From Syntrophomonas sp. DTU019 (lineage in GTDB: Bacteria; Bacillota; Syntrophomonadia; Syntrophomonadales; Syntrophomonadaceae): a stretch of 64,000 bases of DNA. Both the position numbers and the translations under genes were made by a program. Each line of letters begins with the position of its first letter. Positions within the stretch are counted from its first letter, which is position 1. Under the pieces are notes generated by a model that saw only the letters and a list, made by a program, of their open reading frames with translations, was not told the origin of the DNA and did no database searches. This document shows positions 44,761 through 50,905 of this stretch, in pieces. The stretch lies in assembly GCA_001512785.1 (NCBI GenBank), contig LFSQ01000057.1, positions 1 through 64,000 on the forward strand, given 5' to 3'.

Positions 44761-45387
44761 TTGATTCTCAAGCGCGTCGAAGTTAGTTCTATGGCAGTTA
44801 ACTGCTATATCGTGGGCTGTGAAGAAACCAATGAGGTGGCGGTTATCGATCCTGGCGGCAATGCCCGCGGTATTTTACGAGTACTGGAGAGCAACGGGTT
44901 GAAAGCCGTATACATCATCAATACCCACGGTCATATCGATCATATTGGAGCCAACCGGGCCATAAAAGATGCCACCGGAGCCAAGGTCTTGATTCATAAG
45001 AATGACGCTAAAATGCTGACCAATGCGGTGTCCAATTTTTCCTTTATGATGGGCCGGCAAGTCACCAGCCCTCCGGCAGAGCAATTCATAGATGAAGGCG
45101 ATATCATCAAAATCGGCAATACGGTGGAATTAAAAGTCATTCACACCCCGGGGCACAGTCCGGGGGGAATCTGCCTGATGACTGACAATATTATTTTTTC
45201 CGGCGATACCCTTTTCTACGGCTCAATCGGCCGCACCGATTTTCCGGGCGGCTCATACCGGGATTTAATATCCAACATCAAGAATAAACTGCTCTGCTAT
45301 GATGATGATGTGGTGGTTTATCCCGGACATGGCCCGGCTACCACCATCGGCTTTGAGCGCAAGCGCAATCCGTTTTTGCGAGATTAG
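44761..45387 (+). CDS. Metallo-beta-lactamase-fold hydrolase (glyoxalase II-like)
   Basis: A 208-residue MBL-fold metallohydrolase. The metal motif is NTHGHIDHIGA (THxHxDH), with later ligands in HTPGHSPGG and FSGDTLF, and in YPGHGPATTIG, as in YqgX/GloB-type enzymes. The TTG start has AAGGAGGAAGA at ideal spacing. It follows dtd by 15 bp in the same operon. The usual annotation is hydroxyacylglutathione hydrolase, but glutathione is unlikely in such an anaerobe and the true substrate is unknown. Confidence 0.9.
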   Translation: MILKRVEVSSMAVNCYIVGCEETNEVAVIDPGGNARGILRVLESNGLKAVYIINTHGHIDHIGANRAIKDATGAKVLIHKNDAKMLTNAVSNFSFMMGRQVTSPPAEQFIDEGDIIKIGNTVELKVIHTPGHSPGGICLMTDNIIFSGDTLFYGSIGRTDFPGGSYRDLISNIKNKLLCYDDDVVVYPGHGPATTIGFERKRNPFLRD

Positions 45388-45411
45388 TCAAAAATTTGGG
45401 GTTTGTCAATC

Positions 45412-45440
45412 TTTACAGGTGTTCTGCAGTATGGTATCAT
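45412..45440 (+). promoter_or_regulatory. Promoter for the T-box leader
   Basis: TTTACA (45412-45417) and TATCAT (45435-45440) are separated by 17 bp, a good sigma-A match. Transcription would start near 45447, shortly before the first T-box stem. Confidence 0.6.
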
Positions 45441-45469
45441 TCATCTATCATCAATAATGATAATGCGAT

Positions 45470-45850
45470 GAACAAGTAAAGTAGGTTTGTGAAATCATGC
45501 AGAGAGGGGCTGCCAGCGGCTGTAAGCAGCCCTATGAGGAAGCAAATTGAAGTTCACTTGGGAGCACCCGGCTGAAACGCTTGCAAGTAGGTCGAGGCGG
45601 AACCCTTACCGTTAAAAGAGGGGGGATATCGGATTAAACCTGTATCCTTATCATAAGGCCCCTAAACCGTTGGGTGGTTAATGCGTGTAAGCCCAGGCTT
45701 CGCGTCCCAAAAGGATGTGAAGCCTTTGTTTTTCAGGCCTTAAGGTTAGATCCCGTATCCTGATAACAGAGCGGCCTTATGGCAAATAGGGTGGTACCGC
45801 GGGAAGTTCGCCTCTCGTCCCTGGTGGAGAGAGGCCTGTTTCGTTTTCTG
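45470..45850 (+). promoter_or_regulatory. T-box riboswitch with terminator; specifier reads TTC (Phe)
   Basis: A T-box leader that senses an uncharged tRNA. Stem I: CAAGT pairs with ACTTG (45556-45560) and GGTTTG with CAAATT, leaving AGTA on one side and GAAGTTC on the other, so the specifier is TTC at 45553-45555 followed by A. The apical GCGGCTGTAAGC lies at about 45516-45528. The T-box word GGGTGGTACCGCGG lies at about 45789-45802; the variable base after TGG is T (45795). The terminator stem CCTCTC / GAGAGG with a T-rich tail is at about 45811-45845. T pairs with A73, as in tRNA-Phe, and not with C73 of tRNA-His or G73 of tRNA-Asp. Downstream genes are hemZ, hisS and aspS. Confidence 0.9.
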
Positions 45851-46044
45851 GGATGATGTCTAAGGGCGAATCAGGATAGGTCAGGTAAGTTCGCTTACCC
45901 GGGAAGGTTCGCTCTGTACAAATCAGGGCTTGTATAGCAACCGATTTGAAAAAGAGATGCCCACATGCTTGATAATGCATTAAAAGAAACTGCATCAGAC
46001 ACAATTATAATCGCTCGGAGAGAAACATAATGGGAGGATCAATA

Positions 46045-47532
46045 GTGCGGATAGTTCTGAATTTACAACCCAACAGCCTGTATGACAGCATTCATGAGCT
46101 GATGCGCATGGCATATCCCGGCTGTGAGATAGCCTGCACAGAAGGCCCGGGGGATATCAACTTCGACTTGAGCCTGGCCATTGAGGAGCAGGCGGTCTCG
46201 ATAACGGCGCAAGTTGACACCCCGCAGGGCCGGCTCCGCAGGCAGGAGAAATGTGCCATACCGCAGGACGTCGGAAGAGGGCTTTCAAACTGGGCCAAGC
46301 AGCAGGTCAGAGCCTTTACCTATGATCTGCTCTGTGAGCTGACCGGGAGCAATATCAACCGCTACGGCATTCTAACCGGGATGAGGCCGGTCAAACTGGT
46401 GCACCGCCTTTTTGATCAAGGCCTGACCCCTGCGCAGATAGAACAACGCCTGCTTAGCGAATACCGCCTGGAGGCGGAAAAGGCCCGCTTGCTGGTGGAG
46501 ATTGCCAGTGCCAACCGGCCCTATCTGCACTCAGCGGATGAGGCCGGCCAATGGGTCAGTGTTTACCTGGGCATTCCTTATTGCCCTTCGCGCTGTTATT
46601 ACTGCTCTTTTCCCGGGGCGGTGGTGAAAGACTATGAAGCCGATATAGTTCCTTTTCTTGAAGCCTTATTCCAGGAGATCAGGGCCATATCAGCCTGTCT
46701 TCGGGAACAGGGCTTAAAAGTGCAGACTGTATACCTGGGCGGGGGCACCCCTACAGTGCTCTCCACTTATCATCTGGAGCAGCTTTTTGCCGAGCTCAGA
46801 GCCGGCGGTTATATTAGCCAGCACACCGTGGAGATCACTGTAGAGGCGGGCAGGCCGGATACCCTGGATATCCCAAAGCTTAAAGTCTTGAAGGATAACG
46901 GGGTAAACCGCATCTGCATCAACCCTCAAACCATGAATGATGCTACCCTGGCCGTCATCGGCAGGCATCATGATAAGGAAGGAGTGATCAAATGCTTTAA
47001 TTGGGTAAGGGAAGTTGGAATCGAAAAAATCAATATGGACGTAATCATAGGCCTTCCTGGGGAAGGCCTGAGCGAAAACACGAACACAGCACAACAGGTT
47101 CTCAGTTTGAACCCGGATAACATCACTGTTCATACCCTGGCTTTAAAAAGGGGTTCTCTCATGGCTGAAAAGGAAAATGGGATTACCCCGCAGCAGAGAA
47201 TCAGGCAGGTGGAAGCCGGGGTGACCTTATTCAGCCAATTGCTGCGCCAGGCCGGCTATGTGCCCTATTATCTGTACCGGCAGAAATACATGAAAGCCAG
47301 CATGGAAAACCTGGGTTATGCCAGGCCGGGCGCCTTTTGCCTGTACAATATTCAGATGATAGAGGAAAGGCAGACCATCATCGGGCTGGGTGGAGGCGCC
47401 GGCAGCAAGTTCATCGATCTTGAAGCAGGCCGACTGGACTCATTTTATAATCCAAAAAATCCCGCGGCTTACTGCCAGAGCGTAGATAGGCTGATATCTA
47501 GCAAAGTTGACAAGCTTAGGGCATTAAATTAG
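46045..47532 (+). CDS. hemZ: Radical SAM coproporphyrinogen III dehydrogenase-like HemZ
   Basis: A 495-residue HemN/HemZ-family radical-SAM protein. An N-terminal domain of about 150 residues is specific to HemZ. The cluster motif is YCPSRCYYCSFPG (CxxxCxxC), followed by VYLGGGTPTVLS and VEAGRPDTLD (typical of HemZ) and MDVIIGLPGEG. The family is annotated as oxygen-independent coproporphyrinogen oxidase, but many HemZ-like proteins lack proof. ATG at 46030 is possible; GTG at 46045 is better placed behind GGGAGGATC. It is the first gene after the T-box and is followed 57 bp later by hisS. Confidence 0.9.
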   Translation: MRIVLNLQPNSLYDSIHELMRMAYPGCEIACTEGPGDINFDLSLAIEEQAVSITAQVDTPQGRLRRQEKCAIPQDVGRGLSNWAKQQVRAFTYDLLCELTGSNINRYGILTGMRPVKLVHRLFDQGLTPAQIEQRLLSEYRLEAEKARLLVEIASANRPYLHSADEAGQWVSVYLGIPYCPSRCYYCSFPGAVVKDYEADIVPFLEALFQEIRAISACLREQGLKVQTVYLGGGTPTVLSTYHLEQLFAELRAGGYISQHTVEITVEAGRPDTLDIPKLKVLKDNGVNRICINPQTMNDATLAVIGRHHDKEGVIKCFNWVREVGIEKINMDVIIGLPGEGLSENTNTAQQVLSLNPDNITVHTLALKRGSLMAEKENGITPQQRIRQVEAGVTLFSQLLRQAGYVPYYLYRQKYMKASMENLGYARPGAFCLYNIQMIEERQTIIGLGGGAGSKFIDLEAGRLDSFYNPKNPAAYCQSVDRLISSKVDKLRALN

Positions 47533-47589
47533 AATTATCCATGATAATGACCGCTATTCTACCCGATTTTGAAAATTCTGGAGGAAATT

Positions 47590-48873
47590 ATGCCTATCAA
47601 AGCCCCCCGGGGCACATACGATATCATGCCTCCCGTTTCCCGGAGCTGGCAGGTTTTAGAAGAGCGTCTTAAAGAAGTAGCCCGGCTGTACGGCTACCAG
47701 GAAATCCGCACCCCGCTGTTCGAATACACCGAGCTTTTTGAGCGGGGGGTGGGGGAAGGTACCGATATCGTCAGCAAGGAAATGTACACTTTTTATGATA
47801 AATCCGGACGCAGCCTAACACTTAGGCCGGAAATGACCGCAAGTTGCGCCCGGGCCTTGATAGAACACAGCGCCCATACAGGATTGCTGCCCATAAAGTG
47901 GTTCTATTACGGGCCGATGTTTCGCTACGACCGCCCCCAAAGCGGACGCTACCGGCAGTTCCACCAGTTCGGGGTCGAGGTTTTTGGCAGTGCCAGCCCG
48001 ATGGTGGATGCCGAAGTATTGATGATGATGGTGCAGATGCTTAAGGCCATCGGGCTTAAAGAATACCGGCTGCACCTCAATTCAGTAGGCTGTCCATCCT
48101 GTCGCGACAGCTATCGCCAGGCCCTGTTAGACCATATTAAGCCGTTTTGTAAAGAGCTTTGCCCCGATTGCCAGCAGCGCTACCAGCAGAACCCCTTGCG
48201 GGTTCTGGACTGCAAGAACCCGGGCTGTCACCAGGCTATAACCGGATATCCGCGTTTGTTGGATCATCTCTGTGCAGATTGTGCCCGGCACTACCAGCGG
48301 GTGCAAGAGACCTTAAAAGGCCACGGCATATCTTTCCTGCATGATGATCAGCTGGTAAGAGGCCTGGATTATTACACCAACACCGCCTTTGAGATCCATA
48401 TCCCCGGGATTGGGGCCCAGAGCGCGGTGGGCGGCGGAGGTCGCTACAACGGCTTGGTGAAGGCCATCGATGGTCCTGATCTGCCGGGAATCGGCTTTGC
48501 CTTAGGACTGGAGCGGCTGTTGCTGGCGATGCAGCAAAACCATACGCTTAATCAGCACAGGAATGGTATTGAGGTTTTTGTAGCCGTAATGGAAGCACAG
48601 TATGAGGACATCGCTATTTCAATCCTGCAGGAACTGAGAGCTGCCGGCATAGCTGCCGACAAGGACTACATGGACCGCAAAGCCAGGGCACAGATGAAAT
48701 ACGCTGATAAGCTCGGGGCTCCACTGGTCTTATTGGTGGGCGACGAGGAGGTCAAAGCGGGTTTTGTCACCGTTCGCAATATGACCAGCAAGAGACAGGT
48801 AGCCATTTCCAGGGCTGACTTGATTCCAGGCATAAAAAATCTTTTGCAACAGAATGAGGAGGAGCAGGCCTAA
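47590..48873 (+). CDS. hisS: Histidyl-tRNA synthetase
   Basis: A 427-residue class II synthetase that charges tRNA-His. It begins [14 protein letters not shown], has motif 1, motif 2 in [27 protein letters not shown], the histidine-specific [15 protein letters not shown], and motif 3 in [15 protein letters not shown], then the anticodon-binding domain. The frame opens at a TTG at 47569, but the ATG at 47590 follows TGGAGGAAATT. Its stop overlaps the aspS start (TAATG), giving the widespread hisS-aspS pair. It lies downstream of the T-box, though that T-box does not appear to read tRNA-His. Confidence 0.97.
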
Positions 48874-50630
48874 TGAAACGAACCCATTATGCAACACAGA
48901 TCGGGATTGACCAGGTAGGCTGTGAGGTGGTGCTCAATGGTTGGGTCAATACCCGCCGCGACCATGGAGGTTTGATCTTCATTGACCTGCGTGACCGTTC
49001 CGGCATTATTCAGGCCGTGTGCAGCCCGGAGGTGGATGCAGCCGCTTTTGCGGTAGCCGAACAGGTCAGGGGAGAGCATGTGGTGGCGATTCGCGGCACT
49101 GTGATGAGAAGGCCTAAAGACACCGAAAACCCCAACCTGAAAACGGGACTGGTTGAGATTTGGGTAGCCGAATTGCAGGTATTCAACCGGGCCAAAACCC
49201 CGCCATTTTATATTGAGAACGATATAGAAGTGGATGAGAACCTGCGTCTTAAATACCGCTATCTGGATCTGCGCCGCCCTGAGATGATGGATAATCTCAT
49301 GCTGAGGCACCGTATCGTTAAAACCATTCGCGATTTCCTGGACAACAGGGGTTTTATCGAGGTAGAGACCCCGATTTTGACCTCCAGTACACCTGAAGGT
49401 GCCCGCGACTATCTGGTCCCCAGCCGGGTGCATCCGGGGCGCTTTTACGGCCTGCCCCAATCGCCGCAGATATTCAAGCAGATGTTGATGGTGGCGGGAG
49501 TGGATAAGTATTTTCAAATCGCCCGCTGTTTTCGCGACGAGGATCTGCGCGCAGACCGTCAGCCCGAATTCACCCAGCTTGATATGGAGATGTCCTTTAT
49601 CGATGAAGAGGATGTTTTCAGCCTGGTGGAAGAACTGATGACAGTGCTCTTCAGCCAGATAGGCCGGACCATTAAGACCCCGTTTCCGCGTATCCGCTAT
49701 GATGAGGCCATGGCCAGATATGGCAGCGATGCCCCGGACCTGCGCTTTGGGCTGGAAATAGTGGATCTGACCGATATACTGCGCAATACCCAGTTCAAGG
49801 TATTTTCCCAGGCCATACAGAACGGGGGCGTGGTGCGGGCTATCAATGCTGCTGGCTGTGCTTCCTGGACCCGGCGCGAGATCGATGAAATGGGGAAACT
49901 GGCGGTGGACAGCGGGGCCAAAGGCATGGCCTGGATCGCCTGCAGCGAAAACGAACTGAAATCGCCCATAACCAAGTTCCTCAGTCAGGATGAAATAGAC
50001 GGCATTATGACTGCACTGAATGCCAAGCCCGGAGACTTGCTGTTGTTCGGAGCCGATACTGCAGCGGTGGTCAACCGGGTAATGGGCTTTTTGCGCCTGG
50101 AACTGGCGCGGCGCCTCAAGCTGGCTGACCCGCAGGAATTCAATTTCACCTGGGTATACGATTTCCCCTTATTGGAATACGATGATGAGGAAGAGCGCTA
50201 TGTAGCGGTGCATCATATGTTCACCTCACCGCGCCCGGAAGATATCGAGCTCCTGAACAGCGAGCCTTTGCGGGTCAAAGCCAGGGCCTATGACCTGGTG
50301 TTAAACGGCACTGAAGTCGGGGGCGGCAGCATCCGCATTCACCGCCGCGACTGGCAGGAAATGATGTTTGACCGGGTAGGAATGAGCCCGGCAGAAGCCC
50401 AGGAGAAATTCGGATACATGCTGGAGGCTTTTGAATACGGCCCCCCCCCGCATGGCGGGATTGCTTTCGGCATTGACCGCCTCTTGATGATAATGACCGG
50501 CCGCAAGAGCATCCGTGATGTGATCGCATTTCCCAAGACGCAAAGCGCGGTCTGCCCCTTGACTGGGGCCCCATCCCGGGTAAGTCCCCGGCAGCTCAGG
50601 GAATTGTCCCTTAAAATCAAGGAAAAATAA
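48873..50630 (+). CDS. aspS: Aspartyl-tRNA synthetase
   Basis: A 585-residue bacterial-type class IIb synthetase. It has an N-terminal OB anticodon-binding domain ([23 protein letters not shown]), motif 2 in [28 protein letters not shown], a bacterial GAD insertion domain (about 290-420), and motif 3 in [13 protein letters not shown]. The sequence alone does not say whether it also charges tRNA-Asn. A run of nine C at 50441-50449 encodes the YGPPPHGG segment and keeps the frame intact. The gene overlaps hisS by one base and is followed by the 6S RNA gene. Confidence 0.97.
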
Positions 50631-50709: not shown

Positions 50710-50905
50710 AAGATATAGGAATTATCTATCCCTGCTGTGTTCGTGAGAACAGCCGTTCAGTTTTTGCCAACACCAACAACTAGGGAGCTTGGTCTCCACA
50801 TGTGGCTGTATGCCCGGATATACCGGGAAACATTATACATGTGGGAGGGCACCCACCTGCGAAGCAGGTTTAAACGACGGTTGCCACGGCTCGGTGGGGT
50901 TTTTA
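50710..50905 (+). ncRNA. ssrS: 6S RNA
   Basis: A non-coding segment of about 195 bases between aspS and tcdA, the same place where Bacillus carries its 6S-1 RNA gene (bsrA). It can fold into one long, interrupted hairpin: the 5' part CTGCTGTGTTCGTGAGAACAGCCG carries a small internal stem, and the 3' part has GCCACGGCTCGGTGGGG followed by TTTTT, pairing back toward the 5' half. A CCTGCgaaGCAGG stem precedes the end. 6S RNA imitates an open promoter and traps sigma-70-type RNA polymerase in stationary phase. The ends are approximate. Confidence 0.8.

Follow-up and report, generated by a model that had tools for sequence, protein, structure and literature searches.

Why a leader that appears to read phenylalanine tRNA should stand in front of hemZ, hisS and aspS is the question raised by a stretch of 64,000 nucleotides (here the window, all features being on its forward strand) from Syntrophomonas sp. 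DTU019. The locus order is recJ-like, relA/spoT-like, dtd, a metallo-beta-lactamase-fold gene, the leader, hemZ, hisS, aspS and 6S RNA, which we take to be the right gene names on the basis of the translations and of established knowledge of their families. The coproporphyrinogen dehydrogenase-like gene hemZ (46045-47532) probably starts at GTG 46045, since the GGAGG at 46033-46037 is a conserved ribosome site, and this fits the end point of 46044 given for the leader region by the first-pass annotation. It is followed after about 36 nt by hisS (47569-48873) and immediately 3′ of that by aspS (48873-50630). The 6S RNA (50726-50904) adjoins the 3′ end of aspS, an arrangement shared by same-genus loci and by several outgroup ones. 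The window genome is a metagenome assembly of 155 contigs (92.8% complete), and among named assemblies the nearest to it are those of Syntrophomonas, with HemZ identities of 79%, 72% and 68%.

The first-pass annotation called the leader a T-box and a covariance-model search (cmscan) of the window agrees, with a match to the full RF00230 model of Rfam at 45459-45825 that scores 100.6 bits (E 5.5e-21) against a gathering score, the curated cut-off, of 93. The match has Stem I, a specifier loop in the conserved register and a second module in which UGGUACC competes with terminator 2 (T2), the first module being degenerate. The window genome contains 12 T-boxes. The RNA at 45459-45825 is not a new kind of molecule but one of an already known class. 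The two helices proposed to fix its specifier loop were evaluated in a gap-free alignment of 25 distinct Stem I sequences of the same length from the family, with the structure as given by folding of the window leader. Specifically, the lower helix, in which CAAGU at 45473-45477 pairs with ACUUG at 45556-45560, is paired in 97.6% of cells with two-sided change at two of its five pairs, the outer pair occurring as G-C, C-G, U-A, A-U and G-U and the second pair changing from A-U to G-C; the helix above the specifier loop, GGUUUG at 45484-45489 with CAAAUU at 45543-45548, is paired in 98.0% of cells and five of its six pairs show two-sided change. Over the whole of Stem I, 97% of cells are paired, two-sided change is seen at 15 of 23 pairs and the covariation score was reached by no shuffle, while sliding the structure by 1-3 columns lowers the pairing from 97% to 35-50%.

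Because these helices covary, the specifier loop ends at 45555 or 45556, and the specifier is therefore UUC (Phe) at 45553-45555, followed by A, as had been read from the window alone. Each of the 27 distinct leaders extracted carries this triplet without exception, and the CAC or GAC of a leader for hisS-aspS does not occur in its place. The UUC reading depends on the covarying helices and on the conserved register, and it is the specifier that carries the argument. It matches the tRNA-Phe of the window genome (anticodon GAA), whose A73 is able to pair with UGGU, and the same genome's pheS T-box (L007) provides an internal control, with GAA-UUC-A in the same register and UGGU. A Phe-specific T-box usually heads a gene for phenylalanine charging, synthesis or transport, although this is a usual association and not a structural criterion; in the window the next gene is hemZ, whereas the leaders of relatives do have such genes, aroF-pheA, downstream.

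One step of the first-pass annotation does not hold. It had correctly given A73 for tRNA-Phe and G73 for tRNA-Asp, both of which are found in the window genome, and had used the variable U of the antiterminator bulge to exclude tRNA-Asp. However, a U at this position does not exclude tRNA-Asp, because the GAC leaders of outgroups carry UGGU; of the GAC T-boxes between hemZ and hisS, L070, L103 and L115 have UGGU and L066 has UGGC. TBDB also permits a G-U wobble at the discriminator and, for His, leaves this base out of account (PMC7778990). No tRNA-His gene was found in the 92.8% complete window genome. It is very improbable that the leader is a normal synthetase leader which reads tRNA-His, alone or together with tRNA-Phe, through CAC at 45555-45557. 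This triplet overlaps the specifier, and outgroup hisS leaders show GACAC or AACAC, but we rejected it as a His specifier as its A and C lie inside the covarying lower helix, the very position noted for them earlier. The overlap itself is real and uninformative, since an NNC specifier followed by the conserved AC gives an offset CAC in most T-boxes, including those of other specificity such as the pheS (UUC), ileS (AUC), GCC and UCC leaders of the window genome, and throughout the family UUCAC also stands before aroF-pheA.

Within 45380-46100 there is a single promoter-like site, 5′ of the leader at 45412-45440. It reads TTTACA-17-TATCAT, the second hexamer being preceded by TG, and has 10 of 12 matches, for which about one site is expected by chance in the region scanned. 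The element TATGnTATnAT is found again 5′ of the same-genus leaders and of several others in the family. After Stem II there are two successive terminator/antiterminator modules, an addition to the first-pass annotation, in which this pair of modules was not named, with UGGU bulges at 45675 and 45792. In the first antiterminator the UGGU (45675-45678) belongs to a degenerate bulge, UGGUUAAU in place of UGGUACC, and terminator 1 (T1; 45695-45733, stem 45695-45725) has a 13-pair stem and a U run (-21.5 kcal/mol, z -6.2). The second antiterminator carries the bulge that had been recognised before, UGGU-ACC at 45792-45798, of which U45795 can pair with A73 of tRNA-Phe, and terminator 2 (45810-45849) has its stem at 45810-45835 (-15.9 kcal/mol, z -2.8) and a U run broken by CG. 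Two modules about 110 nt apart follow one Stem I in nearly all family leaders, and outside the window genus UGGUACC is intact in both. In the window genus, as seen in 45668-45735 and in L153-L155, ACC has been lost from the first bulge (UGGUAUU or UGGUAUA in the other same-genus leaders) and the terminator is strong. T-boxes with duplicated terminator-antiterminator parts are reportedly a known class, credited to Vitreschak et al. in 2008.

The origin of the arrangement emerges from related genomes, a comparison that the first-pass annotation had recommended along with the suggestion that the loss of an aromatic-pathway gene had left the leader stranded. An orthologous leader followed by aroF-pheA and then by hemZ-hisS-aspS is found in three same-genus genomes and most family relatives, with aroF and pheA lying between leader and hemZ in the same-genus loci (L043-L045) and in Thermosyntropha lipolytica (L055). 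A DAHP synthase of aroF type is present in most of 54 family genomes. Since pheA lies close to hemZ, adjoins it or overlaps it in many relatives, hemZ-hisS-aspS was already in the Phe operon before the loss. PDT, the pheA product, has no match anywhere in the window genome, although it occupies its usual position in each of the three same-genus genomes. What is left of aroF is a scar at 45965-46030, MLDNALKETASDTIIIARRET with its stop, in which the N-terminus of the lost DAHP synthase is fused to the region immediately 5′ of hemZ, which the scar abuts; in orthologous position, 7 of 11 residues are identical to the aroF N-termini of L043 and L044 (MLNAALKKTSS and MINTALKKTAS). Read at the level of sequence, these comparisons show a deletion that removed pheA and all of aroF except its first codons, leaving the leader directly at the head of hemZ-hisS-aspS, and the position of a UUC leader before hisS-aspS is on this reading caused by gene loss. 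Both the earlier observation and its interpretation are in this way upheld.

A move of pheA and aroF to another place in the genome was considered and rejected, as there is no PDT match and the sole remaining DAHP synthase (C140) is 58% identical to the operon copy. PDH/TyrA was not found in the window genome and chorismate synthase is present, which suggests that the organism is a probable auxotroph for phenylalanine and tyrosine; the absence of tyrA could reflect genome incompleteness, whereas pheA is missing in place. Two further features of the same-genus loci L043-L045 may be recorded here. A conserved AGAGGGTGGATT element between terminator 2 and aroF is eroded in the window, and the pheA of these loci is without the C-terminal ACT (feedback) domain, the matches to the T. 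lipolytica protein stopping at about residue 176-185 of 286.

The same outcome is found in two other genomes, G012 (L027) and G032 (L021/L048), each at about 99% completeness, in which the UUC leader is kept directly before hemZ and from which PDT is also absent. In L027 the scar is the C-terminal end of pheA in broken form, matched at 46% over 70 residues (E 1e-16, small search). In L048 the remnant is weak and covers pheA 158-188 (E 0.01). In the HemZ tree the three genomes take separate positions, the window grouping with G006 (0.97) and G012 with G013 (1.0), both of which partners have the operon, and G032 lying beside the g6 clade (0.81). Tree and scars together show two further, independent losses of aroF-pheA, in L027 and L048, each with its own scar and with the leader retained. 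Retention is not universal, as in the more distant G024, G030, G040 and G053 both the leader and aroF-pheA are missing from the hemZ locus. That the deletion in the window is an artefact of metagenome assembly is hardly credible: the assembly is fragmented into its 155 contigs and incomplete, but the locus lies inside a contig of 97.9 kb, the seam carries diverged sequence and is not a clean join of relatives, PDT is missing from the rest of the genome too, and two other genomes arrived at the same outcome with different scars.

It could be asked whether the leader is still maintained. When the window is compared branch by branch with L043, L044 and L045, the changes unique to the window number 20 at 385 leader sites against 23 at 110 sites of the following spacer (p 2.5e-6), and the branch of the sister L043 has 4 in the leader and 3 in the spacer. 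The leader excess on the window branch (20 vs 4, p 0.0015) is not matched at four-fold sites (33 in the window vs 47 in L043, four genes summed), and therefore it is the leader itself that is accelerated; its constraint may be partly relaxed. This excess, the degenerate first bulge beside a strong T1 and the interrupted U run of T2 are what could be expected of a decaying relic, of which promoter and attenuation remain and the response to tRNA-Phe is gone. We regard this as unlikely, because there is no damage to the specifier, to the conserved loops of Stem I, to the UGGU-ACC of module 2 or to either terminator stem, and the degenerate first module is common to relatives that retain aroF-pheA. 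Moreover, only 2 of the 20 changes hit the 181 positions that are invariant in 20 other leaders, where 9.3 are expected (P 4e-4), and 6 of the 20 form three compensatory pairs, 45473/45560, 45507/45532 (A-U to G-C in the window lineage) and 45510/45529 (A-U to C-G), the last two inside the apical hairpin of Stem I (45506-45533). From this pattern of substitution the leader looks like a maintained and slightly retuned RNA, not a vestigial one.

A different objection is that another promoter or regulator 3′ of the leader mainly drives hemZ-hisS-aspS, making the T-box irrelevant to these genes. There is a spacer of 200 nt that could hold it, and more distant relatives have hemZ-hisS-aspS without such a leader, but this too is improbable given that the one promoter-like site precedes the leader, that the spacer is diverging fast and that the contact of pheA with hemZ in many relatives indicates a single operon.

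We consider it probable that the leader is the Phe-sensing T-box of an ancestral aroF-pheA-hemZ-hisS-aspS operon, which a deletion left heading hemZ-hisS-aspS. It would be a transcriptional T-box with one Stem I (UUC) and two successive terminator/antiterminator modules, the deletion in this lineage having taken pheA and nearly all of aroF. RNA polymerase would start near 45447, and uncharged tRNA-Phe, by pairing with UUC and UGGU, would allow transcription to pass the terminators, such that a shortage of phenylalanine would raise the transcription of hemZ, hisS and aspS alongside that of pheST. The genes hisS and aspS are essential and so basal read-through must suffice; the leader may have been kept since its promoter, with this read-through, would be the main source of an essential transcript. 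Most likely the leader still couples the charging of tRNA-Phe to hemZ-hisS-aspS, and such control is a likely consequence of these genes having been at the end of a Phe operon before the loss. More tentatively, it is possible, if somewhat doubtful, that repeated loss of the phenylalanine pathway has turned a biosynthetic Phe T-box into a starvation sensor which induces the non-cognate His and Asp synthetases and a haem enzyme, and that this was selected in at least three lineages as a rewiring of a regulon by deletion of its cognate genes.

A separate observation concerns the leuS T-box of the window genome (L009:1501-1783; G000:C12:23290-23572; specifier CUC), in which an entire tRNA-Ala(GGC) gene sits within Stem III, flanked by the arms of that stem. 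Among its relatives (L213-L262), ARAGORN found the tRNA-Ala in 19 of 19 family members checked, and T-box matches were above the cut-off in 12 of 13. A sequence pattern that places the 3′ end of a tRNA immediately 5′ of a T-box gave hits in 51 of the 399 phylum genomes, from about 17 families (3 in the reversed control), and the cases inspected were nearly all tRNA-Ala(GGC), most with leuS directly downstream. Processing of the internal tRNA-Ala would cut the leuS leader. A tRNA-Ala gene inside a leuS T-box was not found in the literature searched, and these elements may matter more than the orphan Phe T-box and may merit a study of their own.

It is common practice to infer the function of unknown genes 3′ of T-boxes from the specifier. 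At this locus the specifier is correct, yet the genes downstream are unrelated to it because the cognate ones were deleted, which calls for caution in annotation. The locus is also a natural experiment on the fate of a riboswitch after the loss of its target, repeated in two other lineages, and it is this repeated orphaning of a Phe T-box onto the His and Asp synthetases that we find notable. If phenylalanine control persists, it would show that a deletion can rewire the regulation of essential synthetases.

In the literature searched no paper joining T-box, specifier and Syntrophomonas was found, and the leader is best placed beside three known systems. The hisS-aspS T-boxes of other Clostridia (L066, L070, L103, L115) share the hemZ-hisS neighbourhood, but they have the specifier GAC (AAC in L068, L071 and L073) against UUC in the window and sit between hemZ and hisS, where the window has no T-box, its leader lying before hemZ. 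T-boxes with duplicated modules are alike in having one Stem I and two modules, as seen in nearly all leaders of the family, and the difference is the ACC lost from the first bulge in the window genus. Alike in register are the Phe (UUC) T-boxes of pheST and aromatic biosynthesis operons, among them the genome's own leader before pheS, with which it shares the position of UUC, the UGGU for A73 and a transcriptional terminator/antiterminator; unlike these, the window leader has no phenylalanine gene downstream and heads hemZ-hisS-aspS instead.
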